Positions 13,760 to 27,633 are shown, counted from the first letter of the stretch. The stretch is DNA of 37,730 nucleotides from Candidatus Hebobacteria bacterium (GCA_029821495.1 JALGTG010000016.1:1-37730); one strand, 5' to 3'. The notes: generated by a model not told the origin, from the sequence alone. Made by a program: numbers and translations.

Positions 13760-15327
13760 AGCGCTCGACATGTCGTCAGCTCCCTGCCCCTCGGCGTCAG
13801 CATGTGAACCGAGCACGCCAGACACGGATCGAACGAGCGCACGATCCGAACCACCTCGAACGGATTCTCCGCATCCCAAATCCGCGTCCCGATCAGCGCT
13901 TGCTCGATCGGCCCCGGCTTCCCCTCATCATCGTGGGGCGACGCATTCCACGTCGTCGGCACCACCAACTGGTATCGCGTCAGCCTGTGGTTCTCCACCT
14001 CCGCCCAGTGCCCGAGTGCCCCCCGCGGCGCCTCTGTCAGCCCCATCCCACTCCCCGCCTCCGGCGGCTCACGCCACTCGCACACCGGCTCCCCGGGCAT
14101 CAGCTCCAGCGCCCACCCGGCCATCGCATTCACCACCCGCCGCGCCTCCAGCGCTCGCGCCGCATGTCGCCCCAGCACCGAGAACAGCGCCTCCGGCCCC
14201 GCCCCAAACCGCGACAGAACTCCATCCACCTCGCCCCTCGCCTCCTCATCTCCGCTCGCGTACGACACCAACGCCCGCGCCAGCGGGCCCACCTCATACG
14301 GCTCCCCGTCGTACCGCGGCGCCTTGATCCAAGAGTACCCCGTCTCCTTCTCCGGCGCGGGCACCGTCTCTCCCTCCGAGGGATGCCGTCCCGAAGTGCT
14401 ATCCTCGAACCACGAATGCTTCACATACTCCGCTATCTTGCTCGCCTCCACCGGCTCCAGCTTCAGATCGGCTCCCACCCGACCCGCGGCGAACAGCCGC
14501 TCCCGATTCAGCAGGTCCCTCTCCCCCGTCTCCAGCTCCAGCCCCCCATAAGACAGCCATCTCTTCACCCCACCCCCGATCTCGAAGTAATCCCCATACG
14601 CCTCCGCCACCGCCAACACATCGGGAACATAGATGTCCTCGACAAACCTGCGCACCGCCCCCAGCTTCGACAGGAACGCAGCCACCTTGTCCGCCGTCGG
14701 CGTCTCCGTGCACCCGCCGACTACGATCCCCACCTGGTGCGGCATCTTCCCACCGAACACCGACACCATCTCATGCGCCACACGCCGCGCCTCCAGCGCC
14801 TGCACGTAGTGCGAGGCCGCCTCCTGGTTCCCCGCCTTTGAGAGGCGGTAATCCCCCTCGTACCGCGGCATGAACGGCGCCAGCTCTCCCCGCTTGATGA
14901 AATCTCGCAGCCCCACCAGCTTCTCGTCCGCCCCCGCGTAGTCCGCCGCCGCCGCCACATCTACATAATCCAGCGCCGCCAGGTGGTAGAAGTGCAGGAT
15001 GTGCGACTGCAGGAAGTTCGCGCCCAATATCAGGTTGCGCAGCACTCGCCCATTGGCCGGTATCTGCCCGTCAATCCCAAAGCACGCGTCCAGACACAGC
15101 GCCGAGGCCATCGCATGGGCTACCGGGCACACTCCGCACACTCGCTGCGACAGCAGCGCCGCATCTCGCGGATCCCGGCCTCGCAGCATCAGCTCGAATC
15201 CCCGGAAGAGCTGCGCCGAGCACCGCGCCTCCTTCACCTCACCCCCATCCGCCACCACCTCCACCTTCAGGTGCCCCTCAATTCGCGTTATCGGATCGAT
15301 CGAAATCGTCTGCCGTCCAGAAGACAT
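13756..15327 (-). CDS. [NiFe]-hydrogenase large subunit
   Basis: 523 residues, an uptake-type (group 1-like) catalytic subunit. The nickel ligands are in the N-terminal RVCGVCPVAHA (Cys64, Cys67) and the C-terminal DPCLACSVH (Cys502, Cys505). All four are ordinary cysteines, so it is not a NiFeSe enzyme. After His508 a 15-residue tail remains (MLTPRGRELTTCRAL), the peptide the neighbouring protease would remove. RIEGHLKVEV near residue 15 is also conserved. The gene starts 3 nt after the small subunit stop and overlaps the protease gene. Together with a small subunit lacking a Tat signal, the enzyme should be cytoplasmic and could feed H2-derived electrons into the surrounding C1 pathway. Confidence 0.95.
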   Translation of the reverse strand: MSSGRQTISIDPITRIEGHLKVEVVADGGEVKEARCSAQLFRGFELMLRGRDPRDAALLSQRVCGVCPVAHAMASALCLDACFGIDGQIPANGRVLRNLILGANFLQSHILHFYHLAALDYVDVAAAADYAGADEKLVGLRDFIKRGELAPFMPRYEGDYRLSKAGNQEAASHYVQALEARRVAHEMVSVFGGKMPHQVGIVVGGCTETPTADKVAAFLSKLGAVRRFVEDIYVPDVLAVAEAYGDYFEIGGGVKRWLSYGGLELETGERDLLNRERLFAAGRVGADLKLEPVEASKIAEYVKHSWFEDSTSGRHPSEGETVPAPEKETGYSWIKAPRYDGEPYEVGPLARALVSYASGDEEARGEVDGVLSRFGAGPEALFSVLGRHAARALEARRVVNAMAGWALELMPGEPVCEWREPPEAGSGMGLTEAPRGALGHWAEVENHRLTRYQLVVPTTWNASPHDDEGKPGPIEQALIGTRIWDAENPFEVVRIVRSFDPCLACSVHMLTPRGRELTTCRAL

Positions 15328-16293: not shown

Positions 16294-16309
16294 GGGACAC
16301 TCCTGTCCC
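16294..16309. repeat. Short hairpin between folD and the hydrogenase small subunit gene
   Basis: GGGACA (16294-16299) and TGTCCC (16304-16309) enclose a 4-nt loop, preceded by GTAGCA. The GTAG lead-in resembles that of the hyp-locus repeats. It lies 28 nt upstream of the chosen small subunit start and has no T-tract, so it is not an intrinsic terminator. Confidence 0.45.
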
Positions 16310-17890: not shown

Positions 17891-17944
17891 GTTCGGCAGG
17901 AGCTTGTCTCCTGCCACTGTAGGGCGGGGTCTCCGCGCCCCGCC
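17891..17944. repeat. Two palindromic repeats between fhs and fchA
   Basis: Two adjacent hairpins fill almost the whole fhs-fchA gap. 17891-17915 begins GTTC and pairs GGCAGGAG with CTCCTGCC. 17918-17944 begins TGTAG and pairs GGCGGGG with CCCCGCC. The same two types occur together inside hypD (24261-24321). Neither has a T-tract on either strand. Confidence 0.8.
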
Positions 17945-22252: not shown

Positions 22253-23404
22253 TCAGCAAATCCGCGGCATCTGCTCCCCAACGTGACGGTCCAGAATCCG
22301 CCGCGTCCCCAACACCGTCCGCAGCAGCACCCTCCCCCCGCGGCCCTCGCTCACCCGCCCGATCACCGCCGCCTCTCCGCCCAACGCGTGCCCCCGCAGC
22401 ACACCCAAGGCCGCCTCCGCCTCCCCCTCTCCCACCATCACCACCATCTTCCCCTCATTCGCGGCATACAACGCGTCCAGCCCCAGCAGCTCGCACGCCG
22501 CCGCCACGCTCTCCCGCACCGGCACCGCCGACTCCTCGATCTCGACCTCCACCCTCGACTGCCGCGCGATCTCGTTCAAAGCCGTCGCCAGCCCTCCCCG
22601 CGTCGGATCTCGCAGCACGTGCACACCAGATACGGCCGCCAGCAGCTCCGCCACCATACCTGCCAGCGGCGCGCAATCGCTCACAATCGCAGACTCGAAC
22701 TCCAGCCCCTCCCTCTTCGACAACACCGCCAGCCCGTGATCCCCGACGGGGCCGCTTACCAGCACCACATCCCCCGGTCGCGCCCCGGCCCCTGAAACCT
22801 CCACCCCGTCCGCCACCTCGCCCACCCCGGAAGTCGTGACATACACCCGATCCGCGCTCCCCACCGGCACCACCTTCGTATTCACCCCGGCCTCCGCCGC
22901 CGTCCCAGCCATCGACTCCACCACCCGCTCCAGCTCCGAAATCAGCAGCCCCTCCTCCAGGATGAAGCTCGCGCTCAACGCCACCGGCCGCGCCCCCGCC
23001 GCCGCCAGATCGTTCACCGTCCCACACACCGCCAGCTTCCCAATGTCCCCACCCGGGAAGAAGATCGGATCAACCACGAACGCATCCGTCGTGAACACCA
23101 AGCGAGTGCTGTTCTGTAGGGCGGGTATGTCGGCCGCCGAAGGCGGACGCATGCCCGCCGGCCGTTGCCGTTCTCCGCGTCGGGCCTGGCCATGCCCGCC
23201 GGCCGTTCCCGTAGGGCAGGAGCGTGTCTCCTGCCCACCTCCCCCCCGTTCGGCAGGAGCTTGCTCCTGCCCAAAGAGGATCCGCGCGCTATCATCCCCC
23301 GCCGGCTCCCCCGTCCCCAGACGTGACACAAACACGCCCTCCACCAACTCCCCCATCAACTCCCCCCCATCCCCATGCGCCAGCAGCACCCGCTCCTCGC
23401 TCAC
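22253..23404 (-). CDS. hypE: Hydrogenase maturation protein HypE with repeat-derived insert
   Basis: 383 residues, about 50 more than usual. HypE dehydrates the carbamoyl group received from HypF to the cyanide ligand of the [NiFe] site, ending on its C-terminal cysteine (here PRIC). The start is a GTG at 23404 overlapping the hypD stop (GTGA), with AGGAG 8 nt upstream. The N terminus ERVLLAHGDGGELMGELVEG and later FTTDAFVVDPIFFPGGDIGK, SASFILEEGLL and VLRDPTRGGLATAL are typical. Residues about 43-97 are encoded by palindromic repeats inserted in frame between DDSARI and RLVFTTD. The family's TGDTKVV motif is reduced to NTKVV after EAG, a loss in the nucleotide site. Confidence 0.92.
   Translation of the reverse strand: MSEERVLLAHGDGGELMGELVEGVFVSRLGTGEPAGDDSARILFGQEQAPAERGGGGQETRSCPTGTAGGHGQARRGERQRPAGMRPPSAADIPALQNSTRLVFTTDAFVVDPIFFPGGDIGKLAVCGTVNDLAAAGARPVALSASFILEEGLLISELERVVESMAGTAAEAGVNTKVVPVGSADRVYVTTSGVGEVADGVEVSGAGARPGDVVLVSGPVGDHGLAVLSKREGLEFESAIVSDCAPLAGMVAELLAAVSGVHVLRDPTRGGLATALNEIARQSRVEVEIEESAVPVRESVAAACELLGLDALYAANEGKMVVMVGEGEAEAALGVLRGHALGGEAAVIGRVSEGRGGRVLLRTVLGTRRILDRHVGEQMPRIC
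23111..23272. repeat. Array of palindromic repeats inside hypE
   Basis: Four elements lie end to end: 23111-23165 (TGTAGGGCGGG lead, long stem closing with CATGCCCGCC, suffix GGCCGTT), a degenerate relative to 23207, 23208-23236 (GGGCAGGAG with CTCCTGCCC) and 23247-23272 (GGCAGGAG with CTCCTGCC). The whole tract is free of stops in the hypE frame and equals about 55 codons. Confidence 0.8.
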
Positions 23405-24564
23405 CGATCCATCTCCTGCCCTCGATACCGATACCACGCCTGACACGCCCCCTCGCTCGACACCATACACGCCCCCACCGGCCTCCTCGGCATGCACTCC
23501 CTCCCGAACAGCCCGCACTCCGGTGGCTCTATCGCTCCCCTCAGCACATCCCCGCACCGGCACCCGGCCGGCTCCGCCGACGCAGGCAACTTCACCTCGA
23601 ACCGCCGCGCCGCATCGAACTCCGCCAGCCCCTCCGCCAGCTCATACCCGCTCCCCGCTATCGTCCCCAGCCCCCTCCAACGCGTGTCCGCCACCCGGAA
23701 CACCTCTGCCATCATCTCTTGCGCCTTCCGGTTCCCCTCCGGTCGCACCGCGCGCTTGTACTCAATCTCCACCTCCGCGCGCCCCTCCGCGATCTGCGCC
23801 AGCAGCATCCGCACTGCCCCCAACACATCCGCCGCCTCGAATCCCGCCACCACACACGGCTTCCCTGGCCGGGCAGGCCCCCGCGCCGCCACCGGCCCAT
23901 AGGCCTCGCTTCCTATAATCACGCTCACATGCCCCGGACAGATGAACCCATCGATCTTGACATCCGACTCGAGCAGAGCCGTCATCGCTGGCGGAATCAG
24001 CTTGTGCGCGCACAGCACCGAGAAGTTCCCCAGTCCCCTCCGCTTCGCTTCCAGTATCGCGAGCGCTACCGCCGGCGCCGTCGTCTCAAAGCCGATCCCG
24101 AAGAACACCACCTCCTTCGCCGGCTCCCGCGCCGCCGCCTCCACCGCGTCCATCGGCGAGTATACGACCAGCACCTCCGCCCCCTCCGCCCGCGCCTGCT
24201 CCAGGCTCTTCTCCGTCCCCGGCACCCGCACCATATCCCCGAACGTCGCCAGCCTCACACTGTAGGGCGGGGTCTCCGCGCCCCGCCGTCCGGTCCGTTC
24301 GGCAGGAGCTTGCCTCCTGCCACTTCCCCCCAGCGCGATGAAGAAGTCAATCTGCTCCTGCGGAGTCACACACACCGGGCACCCCGGCCCCGAAATCAAC
24401 CTCACCCCCTCCGGCAGCGCCTCCCGTATCCCGTGCCGCGCAATCGCCACCGTGTGCGTCCCACACACCTCCATCAACGTCGCTGGCGGAGCATCCATCC
24501 TCCTCAACCGCTCCGCCATCCTCCGCACCAACTCCGGTCGCCTAAGCTCGCTCAGCCTATCCAT
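23401..24564 (-). CDS. hypD: Hydrogenase maturation protein HypD with repeat-derived insert
   Basis: 387 residues, about 20 more than usual. HypD is the [4Fe-4S] scaffold on which, with HypC, the Fe(CN)2CO unit is built. Seen are MEVCGTHTVAIARHGI (first essential cysteine), LISGPGCPVCVTPQEQID, ATFGDMVRVPG, FFGIGFETTAP, FICPGHVSVIIGSEAY and cluster cysteines near the C terminus (AGCRCGD, PPECGLFGRECMPRRPVGAC). Residues about 80-102 come from two palindromic repeats between FFIALG and VRLATFGD, on a loop between conserved blocks. The ATG at 24564 follows a repeat by only a few bases. Its stop overlaps the hypE GTG start. Confidence 0.93.
   Translation of the reverse strand: MDRLSELRRPELVRRMAERLRRMDAPPATLMEVCGTHTVAIARHGIREALPEGVRLISGPGCPVCVTPQEQIDFFIALGGSGRRQAPAERTGRRGAETPPYSVRLATFGDMVRVPGTEKSLEQARAEGAEVLVVYSPMDAVEAAAREPAKEVVFFGIGFETTAPAVALAILEAKRRGLGNFSVLCAHKLIPPAMTALLESDVKIDGFICPGHVSVIIGSEAYGPVAARGPARPGKPCVVAGFEAADVLGAVRMLLAQIAEGRAEVEIEYKRAVRPEGNRKAQEMMAEVFRVADTRWRGLGTIAGSGYELAEGLAEFDAARRFEVKLPASAEPAGCRCGDVLRGAIEPPECGLFGRECMPRRPVGACMVSSEGACQAWYRYRGQEMDR
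24261..24321. repeat. Palindromic repeat pair inside hypD
   Basis: 24261-24287 pairs GGCGGGG with CCCCGCC after TGTAG; 24297-24321 pairs GGCAGGAG with CTCCTGCC after GTTC. It is the same pair, in reverse order, as the fhs-fchA gap. In the hypD frame they read GRRQAPAE and RGAETPPYS. Confidence 0.85.
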
Positions 24565-24568
24565 TGCC

Positions 24569-24714
24569 GTTCTGTAGGGCGGGCACACCGATGCCCGCCG
24601 GCCGTTCTGTTGGGCAGGGGCTTGCCCCTGCCATTGTAGGGCGGGGTCTCCTGACCCCGCCGCCTCCCCTCGTTCGGCAGGAGCTTGTCCGCCTCGGGCG
24701 GGCTTGCCTCCTGC
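24569..24714. repeat. Repeat array filling the hypC-hypD gap
   Basis: Four elements occupy nearly the whole gap. 24569-24605 has TGTAGGGCGGG and GCCCGCC with suffix GGCCGTT. 24605-24632 pairs GGCAGGGG with CCCCTGCC. 24635-24661 pairs GCGGGGTC with GACCCCGC. 24672-24714 is a GGCAGGAG/CTCCTGCC element whose loop is split by a second small hairpin (CCGCC-TCG-GGCGG) flanked by GCTTG on both sides. Confidence 0.8.
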
Positions 24715-24724
24715 CCCATACGCC

Positions 24725-24946
24725 TCAATCGCTCACCCCGCCAAACATCTCCTCAAACAACCTCAACGTCTCCTTCGCCTCCTCCGGCTCCAGCCTCTCT
24801 ATCGCAATCCCCGCGTGCACGATCACATAATCCCCAACCTCAACCTCCACCAGATCAATGCGCGCCGCTCTGCGCACGCCCCCCTCCTCCACCTGCGCAA
24901 CCGGCCCCTCTATCTCAACCACCTTCATCGGCACCGCCAAACACAT
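24725..24946 (-). CDS. hypC: Hydrogenase maturation chaperone HypC
   Basis: 73 residues, the normal size. HypC chaperones the large subunit and, with HypD, carries iron during cofactor assembly. The essential N-terminal cysteine follows the start Met (MCLAVPMKVVEIEG), and the compact beta-barrel continues with VGDYVIVHAGIAIERL and EAKETLRLFEEM. It lies between hypF and hypD, the usual hypFCDE order. Both flanking gaps consist of palindromic repeats. A GGGAG site stands about 11 nt upstream of the ATG. Confidence 0.95.
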   Translation of the reverse strand: MCLAVPMKVVEIEGPVAQVEEGGVRRAARIDLVEVEVGDYVIVHAGIAIERLEPEEAKETLRLFEEMFGGVSD

Positions 24947-24966
24947 CAGCCTACACTCCCGCTTAC

Positions 24967-24993
24967 TGTAGGGCGCGGTCTCCCGACCGCGCC
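24967..24993. repeat. Palindromic repeat upstream of hypC (GGCGCGGTC stem)
   Basis: TGTAG lead-in, then a perfect 9-bp stem GGCGCGGTC / GACCGCGCC around a 4-nt loop. The stem sequence differs from the GGCGGGG copies on both arms at once, so pairing is kept. Confidence 0.85.
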
Positions 24994-25009
24994 GCCATCC
25001 CCTGTCTTG

Positions 25010-25099
25010 TCATTCTGAGCCACACGCCAATAATCCCGCCGCCGCAACCACCGCCTGCCCCAAACTCATCCCCCCATCATTCGGCGGTACCTCCCTTCT
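25010..25099 (-). pseudogene. Orphan second copy of the hypF 3' end
   Basis: This stretch encodes REVPPNDGGMSLGQAVVAA followed by AGLLACGSE and a TGA. The last 18 residues of the shared block match the real HypF C terminus exactly. It lies just downstream of the hypF stop, beyond a palindromic repeat, and in another frame relative to hypF, so it cannot be read through. Eleven of the 18 shared codons differ and every difference is synonymous. There is no ribosome site or usable start. It is best called a gene fragment left by recombination with another hypF. Confidence 0.7.
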
Positions 25100-25100
25100 T

Positions 25101-25124
25101 GTTGGGCAGGAGCTTGCTCCTGCC
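25101..25124. repeat. Palindromic repeat directly after hypF
   Basis: GTTGG lead-in with GGCAGGAG pairing to CTCCTGCC. It sits between the hypF stop at 25126 and the orphan hypF tail, marking the junction of the duplication. Confidence 0.85.
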
Positions 25125-25125
25125 A

Positions 25126-27633
25126 CTATCGCCGCGACGCGGCAACGACGGCCTGTCCGAGGCTCATCCCTCCGTCGTTCGGAGGGACCTCGCGATGGAC
25201 ATGGCCCCTCAGTCCCTCCTCCTCCAGCAGCTCCACCAACCTCCCCACCAGCCGCGCATTCTGCATCACCCCGCCGCACAGCACCACATCCCTCGGCCCG
25301 CCTTCCTCATGCAGCCGCCGGCACGCCTCCACCGTAAACCGCGCCACCGTCTCATGAAACCGCCCCGCAATCTCGCCTCGATCTACCCCCTGCTCAACAT
25401 CCTCCACCACCCCCCTCACCACCGCCCTCGCATCAACCACACCATCCACAATCTCATACTCGTACGCTGTAGGGCGGGCATGCCCATGCCCGCCGGCCGT
25501 TGCCGTTCTGTAGGGCGGGGATGTCTCTGCATCCCCGCCGCGCCGTTCTCTAGGGCGGCCATACGCCGCAGGCGCATCGCCGCCGCTCCCCGCTGTTCGG
25601 CAGGAGCTTGCTCCTGCCCCTGTGGGAGCCCGGCCCTCCGGGCGATTGGCTGCCCCGGCCATCCCCTCCAACTCCATCGCCGGCTGCCCCTCATACGTCG
25701 CCTCCGGCGTGCACCCCAACATCGCCGCCACCGCATCGAAGAACCGCCCCATGCTCGAACACGCCGGGCTGTTGATCCCCCGCTCCACCTGCCTCCCCAC
25801 CACCCGCATCTCCTCATCCTCTATATACGGCATCAACACCCGCGCCTTCGCCACCCCCTCCTCCGGCCCAAACGCATCAACCAGGTGGCTCAACGCCATC
25901 CGCGCCGGCCGCCGAATCGCCCCCTCCCCGCCCGGCATCGGCACCGCCCGCAGATGCCCCGCCCGCTCGAACCTCCTCCGGTCCGCAACCAGAATCTCCC
26001 CTCCCCACACCGTCCCATCCGCCCCGTATCCCGTCCCATCATAGGCCACACCAATCACCGGCCCCTCCAGCCCCAGCTCCGCCATCACACTCACCACATG
26101 CGCGTGATGATGCTGCACCCCCACCAGCCTCACCCCCTCCAGCGACTTCGCCCACTGCGTCGAGAGATACCCCGGATGCAGATCATGGGCCACCACCTCC
26201 GGCTTCGTCTCGAACAGCTCCTCGAAATGCCCCACCGCCCGCCCGAAGTACTCCAGCACCTCCGCCGTATCGAGATCCCCGATGTGCTGGCTCAGAATCG
26301 CCTCCCCCGCCCGCACTAAGCAGAACGCGTTCTTCGTCTGCCCGCCCACCGCCAGCACCGGCGGACCCTCATAGTCCACCGTCACCGACCGCGGCACATA
26401 GCCCCGCGCCCGCCGCACCGGAATCACCAGCTCGCCTTCCACGCGTATCACCGAGTCATCACACGGCACCGCGATCTCTCGGTTGTGCGACAGGATGTGA
26501 TCCGCAATCGGCCCCAGCTTCACGCGCGCCTCTTCATCCTCGTGGATGATCGGCTCCTCCGCCAGGTTCCCGCTCGTCATCACCAGCGCCGGCGGCGACT
26601 TCTCCAGCAGCAGCCGATGCAGCGGCGTGTACGGCAGCATCACCCCTACCGTATTCTGCCGCGGCGCAATCCCCTCCGCCAGCCCTCCATCCTCCTTGGC
26701 GGACATGATCACCACCGGACTCTCCGGCGACATTAGTAGTTGCTCCGCGCGTTCCCCCACCTCCGCCACCCGCCGCGCCTCCGCCACATCCCGCACCATG
26801 ATCGCGAACGGCTTCAGCCCCCGTCCCTTCCGCGCGCGCAGCGTCTCCACCGCCTCCGCGTTCCGCGCATCGCACGCCAGGTGATATCCCCCCAACCCCT
26901 TGATCGCCACCACCTTCCCCTCCCCCAGCAACCGCGCCGCCTCCTCTAGGGCGCGCATATGGGTCGGGCAGTAGCTTGTCTCCTGCCCATGCATTGGTTC
27001 GGCAGGAGCTTGCCTCCTGCCATCTTCTGTAGGGCGGGGTCTCTGTGCCCCGCCGCTTTCCTCCAGTATCACCTCCGGCCCGCACTTCGGACACGCCACC
27101 GGCTCCGCGTGGAAACGCCTGTCTCCGGGGTCGCCATACTCGCGCCTGCACTCCTCACACATCTCGAACGCCGCCATCGTCGTCTGCGGCCGGTCGTACG
27201 GAATCCCGCGCACGATACTGAACCGCGGCCCGCAGTTCGTGCAGTTCGTGAACGCATACCCGAAGCGCCGGTCGTGCGCATCAGCGATCTCCCGCGCGCA
27301 CTCCTCGCACACCGCCACATCCGGCGGAATCAGCGCCGTAGGCCGTGGCGCGCCGACACCCTCCACGATGCGGAACCCCTCCGCCACCACCGGCTCCCCC
27401 TCCCGCGCCTCCACCGACGCGATCCGTGCCAGCGGCGGCGCCTCCCTCTCCAGGCGCCGCTCAAACTCCTCCACCCGCGGCCCATCCCCCTCCACCTCAA
27501 TGATCACCCCGGCCGCTGTGTTCCTCACCGACCCGGACAGGCCCAGCGATGCGGCCAGCCGGTAGACGAACGGCCGGAAACCCACTCCCTGGACAGTTCC
27601 CTTCACTCGCACTTCGCGTCCGGTAGTCTTCAC
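25126..27633 (-). CDS. hypF: Carbamoyltransferase HypF with two repeat-derived inserts
   Basis: 835 residues against a usual 750-780. HypF makes carbamoyl-AMP from carbamoyl phosphate and ATP and loads HypE. Domains in order: acylphosphatase-like (1-90; TVQGVGFRPFVYRLA), zinc fingers (about 109-184; CEECAREI, NCTNCGPRF, CEECRREYG, CPKCGPE), YrdC-like (about 230-420; VVAIKGLGGYHLACDARN) and Kae1-like (VQHHHAHVVSVMAE, GVAYDGTGYGADGTVWGGE, SSMGRFFDAVAAMLG). Residues about 193-229, between fingers and YrdC, and about 661-722, between MELEGMAG and AYEYEIV, are repeat-encoded and account for the extra length. GTG start; the ribosome site is weak. The tail EVPPNDGGMSLGQAVVAASRR is repeated downstream. 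Confidence 0.94.
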   Translation of the reverse strand: MKTTGREVRVKGTVQGVGFRPFVYRLAASLGLSGSVRNTAAGVIIEVEGDGPRVEEFERRLEREAPPLARIASVEAREGEPVVAEGFRIVEGVGAPRPTALIPPDVAVCEECAREIADAHDRRFGYAFTNCTNCGPRFSIVRGIPYDRPQTTMAAFEMCEECRREYGDPGDRRFHAEPVACPKCGPEVILEESGGAQRPRPTEDGRRQAPAEPMHGQETSYCPTHMRALEEAARLLGEGKVVAIKGLGGYHLACDARNAEAVETLRARKGRGLKPFAIMVRDVAEARRVAEVGERAEQLLMSPESPVVIMSAKEDGGLAEGIAPRQNTVGVMLPYTPLHRLLLEKSPPALVMTSGNLAEEPIIHEDEEARVKLGPIADHILSHNREIAVPCDDSVIRVEGELVIPVRRARGYVPRSVTVDYEGPPVLAVGGQTKNAFCLVRAGEAILSQHIGDLDTAEVLEYFGRAVGHFEELFETKPEVVAHDLHPGYLSTQWAKSLEGVRLVGVQHHHAHVVSVMAELGLEGPVIGVAYDGTGYGADGTVWGGEILVADRRRFERAGHLRAVPMPGGEGAIRRPARMALSHLVDAFGPEEGVAKARVLMPYIEDEEMRVVGRQVERGINSPACSSMGRFFDAVAAMLGCTPEATYEGQPAMELEGMAGAANRPEGRAPTGAGASSCRTAGSGGDAPAAYGRPRERRGGDAETSPPYRTATAGGHGHARPTAYEYEIVDGVVDARAVVRGVVEDVEQGVDRGEIAGRFHETVARFTVEACRRLHEEGGPRDVVLCGGVMQNARLVGRLVELLEEEGLRGHVHREVPPNDGGMSLGQAVVAASRR
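25468..25650. repeat. Repeat array inside the 3' half of hypF
   Basis: Five elements in tandem: 25468-25501 (GGCGGGCATG with CATGCCCGCC, suffix GGCCGTT), 25505-25540 (GGCGGGGATG with CATCCCCGCC), 25544-25583 (GGCGGC-type long stem), 25595-25618 (GGCAGGAG with CTCCTGCC) and about 25621-25650 (TGTGGGAGCCCGG with CCGGGC). All are open in the hypF frame over some 60 codons. Confidence 0.85.
26946..27055. repeat. Repeat array inside the 5' part of hypF
   Basis: A degenerate TAGGGCGCGCAT element, 26967-26989 (GGGCAG...CTGCCC), 26998-27022 (GGCAGGAG with CTCCTGCC) and 27029-27055 (GGCGGGG with CCCCGCC). In the hypF frame they read peptides such as GRRQAPAEP and GQETSYCPT, stop-free, between the last zinc finger and the YrdC domain. 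Confidence 0.85.

Follow-up and report, generated by a model that had tools for sequence, protein, structure and literature searches.

The closest described relatives of the system reported here are the REPtrons of Stenotrophomonas and Pseudomonas, in which repetitive extragenic palindromic (REP) elements tagged with GTAG occur together with REP-associated tyrosine transposases (RAYTs) (Nunvar 2010, PMC2817692; Di Nocera 2013, PMC3733652). In Opitutus terrae, Thauera and others, intragenic REPs or clusters of them lie in frame and add 20-82 residues to the encoded proteins, with replication and repair genes among those hit (PMC3733652). Here we describe a 37,730-nucleotide stretch of DNA from Candidatus Hebobacteria bacterium (GCA_029821495.1, JALGTG010000016.1:1-37730; hereafter the window), in which the maturation genes hypE, hypD, hypC and hypF, at positions 22,253-27,633, are crowded with small hairpins. 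These hairpins are very probably REP elements that belong to several sub-families and are moved in trans by their cognate RAYTs, HUH Y1 nucleases that are encoded elsewhere in the genome.

As in the Stenotrophomonas and Pseudomonas REPtrons, an element consists of a tag, a perfect stem of 7-10 bp and a loop of 2-8 nt; an inverted pair of REPs surrounds the RAYT, copies are many, and several REP families coexist in one genome, each with a RAYT specific to it. In contrast to those systems, GTTC and GTTG serve as tags alongside GTAG, the copies are mostly head to tail and strand-biased, and the lineage is probably Armatimonadota. The likeness to the intragenic REPs of Opitutus and Thauera extends to the replication and repair frames that are hit; unlike there, a single operon has four arrays spread over three of its maturation genes, and inherited and renewed copies can be traced in relatives. 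REP/RAYT systems and in-gene REPs are already known, and what is unusual here are the variant tags, the unidirectional head-to-tail arrays, their density in the hyp genes and the strong strand bias.

Results

Tagged hairpins in excess over chance

A head-plus-stem search of positions 22,253-27,633 returned 18 tagged hairpins, one of which is spurious (minus strand, 24,697); a degenerate copy lies in addition at ~26,967, and half of one at ~23,175. The count of 16-18 hairpins in 5.4 kb, made in an earlier note from the sequence alone, is thus borne out: between 23.1 and 27.1 kb there are ~17 clear and 1-2 degenerate hairpins, and every clear one has its tag on the plus strand. The tag is 4 nt long (GTAG, GTTC, GTTG, rarely others) and leads into a perfect stem of 6-10 bp that starts with GGCG or GGCA; the loop is usually 2-8 nt, and some loops hold a nested palindrome or a foreign segment. 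As short GC-rich palindromes of 20-40 nt in high copy, the hairpins answer to the description of REPs.

Copy number in the host genome is above control by each measure used. The sample, in which contigs with hits were over-represented, amounted to ~690 kb, and 180 elements were found in 688 kb versus 9 in the reversed sequence (138 versus 2 under a strict definition). For the core GGCRGG-N4..14-CCYGCC, the whole genome gives 254 matches versus 58 for the mirror control, and the hyp region gives 14 versus 0.45 expected under an even spread (Poisson p ~1e-16). GTAG is the tag of 94 of the 180 elements and GTTC or GTTG that of 70, the canonical REP tag being GT(A/G)G; the suffix GGCCGTT, also noticed earlier, follows 17 GGCG-type elements in the 688 kb. 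The two arms of the stem do vary together: in 54 copies, 97.9% of cells are paired versus 80.8% in shuffles, and the covariation score is 0.476 versus 0.130, a value reached in 0 of 500 shuffles and lost when the partner was slid.

Certain REP loops (L049, L048, L023, L052) contain recurring segments of 28-34 nt, for example CTTGTTTACCCGGGCCTTGCCGCAGGGC or GGAGTTTACCCTGAGCGAAGTCGAAGG, which resemble separate nested repeats. Further recurrent hairpin families, for example with stems starting GTTTCGGG and CGCAGGTT, are present in other stretches of the host genome (e.g., L010, L014), some of them near RAYT or REP loci.

Seven RAYTs and their REP families

The RAYT-type transposase that the earlier note proposed to look for is represented by seven genes. 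All seven are Y1 transposases that exceed the curated NCBIfam cut-off of 80 bits for NF047646, 'REP-associated tyrosine transposase' (99-128 bits), all retain the H-x-H (HUH) motif and the catalytic tyrosine, and each locus (7/7) has window-type hairpins with a stem of its own on both sides, arranged as an inverted pair. The flanking elements are GTAG-GGCGGCATC/GGCGCGATC doublets at locus C267, GTAG-GGCGGGTATTCGCC at C309, GTGG/GTAG-GGCAGGAG at C71, GTTG-GGCAGGAGC and GTAG-GGCAGGAC/G at C24, GTTC-GGCAGGAG at C27, GTTC-GGCAGGAGC at C272 and GTTG-GGCAGGGGC at C224.

In a tree of RAYTs, REPs with GGCG stems match the clade of C267, C309 and the RAYT of genome G003 (99/97), and GGCAGG stems match the remaining RAYTs; C272 and C224, with their GTTC or GTTG flanks, form a separate branch (98/98). 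Because the stems of different RAYT lineages differ, the variety of stems represents several REP families, and every family belongs with a transposase of its own. The single mobile family considered earlier is ruled out by this split, and the compensatory change then proposed as preserving the hairpin has to be reread: the stems covary, but mainly through co-evolution of several REP families with different RAYTs and not through point-by-point repair.

Contacts with the GTAG tag are made in the Escherichia coli RAYT by Q95, D100/E100 and R104, residues that other groups conserve in part (PMC6006769, PMC8266576). The W-Q motif that includes the glutamine is kept in all seven RAYTs with GTAG flanks (C267, C309, C71 and those of G002, G003, G005 and G007); the corresponding residues are W-A in C272 and W-S in C224. 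The glutamine is also present in C27 (GTTC flanks) and C24 (mixed tags), and C272 and C224 are sisters, so a connection of glutamine loss in these two with GTTC/GTTG tags is suggestive only. The cleavage sites predicted from tag complementarity (GA for GTTC, CA for GTTG) were not borne out by the flanks, which are mostly CC or CT upstream.

REP arrays within reading frames

Four arrays lie in frame in hypE, hypD and hypF, where they add 57-165 nt net; the length of each net insertion is divisible by 3, and none contains a stop. The hyp genes are on the minus strand and the REPs on the plus strand. In hypE (22256-23395, full open frame 22253-23563; NCBIfam TIGR02124, 391 bits; dN/dS, the ratio of nonsynonymous to synonymous substitution rates, 0.16-0.20), a three-REP array at 23116-23271 consists of GTAG-GGCGGG with a long nested loop (23116-23159), GTAG-GGCAGGAG (23211-23235) and GTTC-GGCAGGAGC (23248-23271); relative to family members the net insertion is ~162 nt, and it is absent in G001 and G007. 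In hypD (23404-24564, frame open to 24588 with a probable ATG start at ~24564; TIGR00075, 430 bits; dN/dS 0.13-0.20), two REPs at 24262-24321, GTAG-GGCGGGG (24262-24287) and GTTC-GGCAGGAG (24297-24321), give a net insertion of ~57 nt. The hypF gene (25126-27633, 835 aa; TIGR00143, 788 bits; dN/dS 0.13-0.24) carries two arrays. That in the zinc-finger/YrdC linker (26967-27054) comprises a degenerate copy (26967-26987), GTTC-GGCAGGAG (26997-27021) and GTAG-GGCGGGG (27029-27054), with a net insertion of 90 nt, and that in the C-terminal linker (25469-25618) has four REPs (25469-25494, 25510-25539, 25550-25584 with a CTAG head, and 25595-25618) and is ~165 nt longer than in G004.

Compared with solved homologues, the insertions are located in the HypF linker between zinc finger and YrdC, a loop of the HypF Kae1 domain, a HypD loop and an N-terminal HypE loop. 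The relatives G001, G004, G007 and G003 have shorter linkers at the array positions. The HypF C-linker of G001, G004 and G007 contains an older, partly decayed in-frame REP, GTAG-GGCAGGAG-CGTGT, and the HypF N-linker of G006 contains one REP; it follows that REPs have been inherited in HypF, with the arrays renewed at the same places. In an AlphaFold model of HypF, residues 664-722 mostly have a predicted local distance difference test score (pLDDT) below 50, as do residues 196-223, and the remaining fold is mostly confident, so the HypF inserts are predicted to be disordered loops.

Across hypE, hypD and hypF, the dN/dS of 0.13-0.24 indicates that purifying selection persists. Together with an intact [NiFe] hydrogenase large subunit in the window (13804-15204, minus strand, 494 bits to PF00374), these ratios argue that the Hyp proteins are probably functional. 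Amino-acid changes on the host's own lineage versus that of G004 number 24 versus 10 in HypE, 27 versus 17 in HypD and 54 versus 34 in HypF, but 14 versus 18 in the comparison with G001; evolution is thus somewhat faster on the host's branch in most comparisons. In HypE (window ~22256-23100), 5 residues before the conserved TKVV motif are missing relative to all aligned relatives (AGVNTKVV versus V-ICGDTKVV).

Outside the hyp locus, frames resembling DNA polymerase III alpha and DinB (L050:1-1497, minus strand, and L023:545-2122, plus strand) have several in-frame REPs each. Contig L050 terminates in a REP array.

Further REPs lie between the hyp genes, again on the plus strand. The hypC/hypD spacer has four at 24574-24715 (GTAG-GGCGGGCA, GTTG-GGCAGGGGC, GTAG-GGCGGGGTC and GTTC-GGCAGGAG, the last with a nested palindrome in its loop), hypC itself (24728-24934) being a gene-caller prediction named from its sequence. 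The hypF/hypC spacer has two at 24968-25124, GTAG-GGCGCGGTC (24968-24993) and GTTG-GGCAGGAGC (25101-25124). The 3′ end of hypF is duplicated around this GTTG REP (25030-25200), with EVPPNDGGMSLGQAVVAA in both copies, and the detached downstream copy is nearer to hypF of G004 (94% over 50 nt) than is the copy joined to hypF (~81% over a longer aligned stretch), which suggests that recombination may have occurred at the REP. Of the few copies reported earlier from elsewhere in the window, GTAG-GGCAGGG at 2322-2345 and the pair GTTC-GGCAGGAG and GTAG-GGCGGGG at 17891-17944 (second copy at 17,919) are clear, all on the plus strand, with the pair located upstream of a methenyltetrahydrofolate cyclohydrolase-like gene; the hairpin at 16,294 is a weak one, GTAG-GCAGGGAC, and falls outside the main families.

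Orientation and strand bias

Neighbouring elements within 150 bp have the same orientation in 63 cases and the opposite one in 3, and inverted pairs are found mainly at RAYT loci. This rules out the alternating arrangement of bacterial interspersed mosaic elements (BIMEs) and REPINs (REP doublets forming hairpins), so that of the REP/BIME parallel drawn earlier only the REP half stands. The E. coli REP/BIME system shares the GTAG head and the HUH Y1 transposase; however, its copies alternate (10/10 close neighbours are opposite), and in five 50-kb samples of strain K-12 (250 kb) they are not strand-biased (15 versus 12).

In the host genome, the tag of elements outside the RAYT loci lies on the C-rich strand in 130 of 138 cases (124 of 126 at |GC skew| above 0.1), and the bias also holds when scored by locus (38/40, p=1.5e-9). 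Masking the REPs leaves the GC skew unweakened. The same direction of bias, at lower strength, is seen in the relatives G001 (52/69) and G008 (42/56), the former being weaker evidence because its contig has many local reversals of skew sign, as though segments had been inverted. The window itself has a very strong skew, ~-0.31 over 1-22 kb. No earlier report of a REP strand bias was found in the open-access literature searched.

Distribution

The nearest named hypF belongs to Candidatus Hebobacterum abditum (Armatimonadota, 68% identity), and on sequence grounds the host lineage probably lies within that phylum. A 16S search in G001 gave no match. With a covariance model, for which no more than 150 candidates per genome were scored so that the counts are lower bounds, at least tens of REP copies were detected in each member genome of the family and in one further genome from its order; other genomes of the phylum gave few or none. 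RAYT genes number 7 in the host genome and 0-1 in other family members. No earlier report of a REP/RAYT system in Armatimonadota was found in the literature searched.

Discussion

The mechanism that we envisage for the REPs of the hyp locus is transposition in trans. A RAYT would most likely recognise the single-stranded tag (GTAG, GTTC or GTTG) together with the hairpin, cut beside the tag and join the element to a new single-stranded site; copies would build up head to tail, and in-frame copies in surface loops or in linkers between domains would be tolerated and then inherited. Current mobility and the chemistry of cleavage are inferred. Several points weigh against this scheme. No movement was observed. 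GTTC and GTTG do not conform to the canonical GT(A/G)G, and a GTTG tag abolished cleavage in Stenotrophomonas maltophilia (PMC8266576), so some families may be altered in recognition or dead. A RAYT was not found in the REP-bearing genomes G001, G004 and G008, whose assemblies are 74-86% complete; their REPs, dozens in each, may be relics, or may belong to a missed RAYT gene or an unrecognised mobiliser.

There are other possible explanations for the hairpins. Rickettsia palindromic elements (RPEs) likewise insert in frame into protein genes, and the insertions in HypE, HypD, HypF and the polymerase- and DinB-like frames could reflect such a family, spreading through peptide insertions independently of RAYTs. 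The same elements flank seven RAYTs, however, many copies are outside called genes, and intragenic REPs with GTAG tags have already been described (PMC3733652); the RPE explanation is thus hardly credible, the present elements being set apart by host, sequence and RAYT association, without a comparison of RPE sequences. It is also extremely improbable that the hairpins are terminators, processing sites or attenuators of the hyp operon, kept for RNA structure. Hairpins with covarying stems between hyp genes would fit such a role, and REPs can acquire roles of this kind (PMC3733652), but these hairpins also occur inside reading frames, have a single-strand tag and flank transposases, are found genome-wide on both strands relative to genes, and are mostly missing from the orthologous hyp loci of relatives. 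A miniature inverted-repeat element (MITE) of a DDE transposase, which would have terminal inverted repeats and a target-site duplication, is likewise unlikely in view of the single tagged hairpin and the connection with RAYTs. An alternative of a different sort is that a decaying hyp operon simply gathers insertions, as the residues missing from HypE and the faster change relative to G004, though not to G001, might indicate. With all frames open and under purifying selection, net insertions in multiples of 3 and the hydrogenase intact, we consider decay unlikely; it is compatible with REP identity and would account at most for density.

The strand bias could in principle follow from the direction of genes or the avoidance of stop codons rather than from replication, since GTAG contains a stop in one sense frame and in-gene copies are 16 antisense to 2 sense. 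This is very unlikely and we reject it as the cause. GTTC and GTTG are stop-free in both directions yet almost equally biased (53/58 on the C-rich strand), and outside the RAYT loci the bias holds with antisense (52/52) and with sense (65/73) gene surroundings. The skew, moreover, is positional rather than coding-driven, because opposite-strand genes on one contig have opposite coding-strand skew.

For the bias we infer a basis in replication, either insertion or retention coupled to the fork. The G-rich strand is usually the leading strand. In relatives, the rpoB and rplB genes are mostly consistent with this and the dnaA position in G001 fits loosely, but the host's own rplB lies on the C-rich strand. 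Single-stranded hairpin transposition by HUH Y1 enzymes is coupled to replication in IS200/IS605 elements such as IS608 and ISDra2 (PMC6006769). Those elements differ from the present ones, which contain no transposase and have tags opposite the presumed lagging-strand template. If G-rich is leading, the tags are on the strand opposite to that expected for lagging-template insertion, and a simple IS608-like model fails to predict the bias, a further point against the proposed scheme. The cuttable strand would then be hidden from the single-stranded lagging template while RAYT cutting purged the opposite orientation, and retention of RAYT-hidden copies becomes as plausible as directed insertion. 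We tentatively put forward, as possible rather than probable, the combined proposal that REPs enter or survive in one fork orientation only, with the tag on the C-rich strand, and that loss of the tag-reading glutamine changed the guide of the C272/C224 branch from GTAG to GTTC/GTTG.

Finally, these observations add a deep, uncultured lineage to the hosts of multi-family REP/RAYT systems. The in-gene arrays illustrate how enzymes still under purifying selection can be lengthened by 19-55 residues through a selfish hairpin. GTTC and GTTG provide natural variants of the transposase guide, together with a candidate residue change, and the strand bias is strong enough to test a question still open for REPs, namely how RAYTs choose or lose sites at the replication fork.

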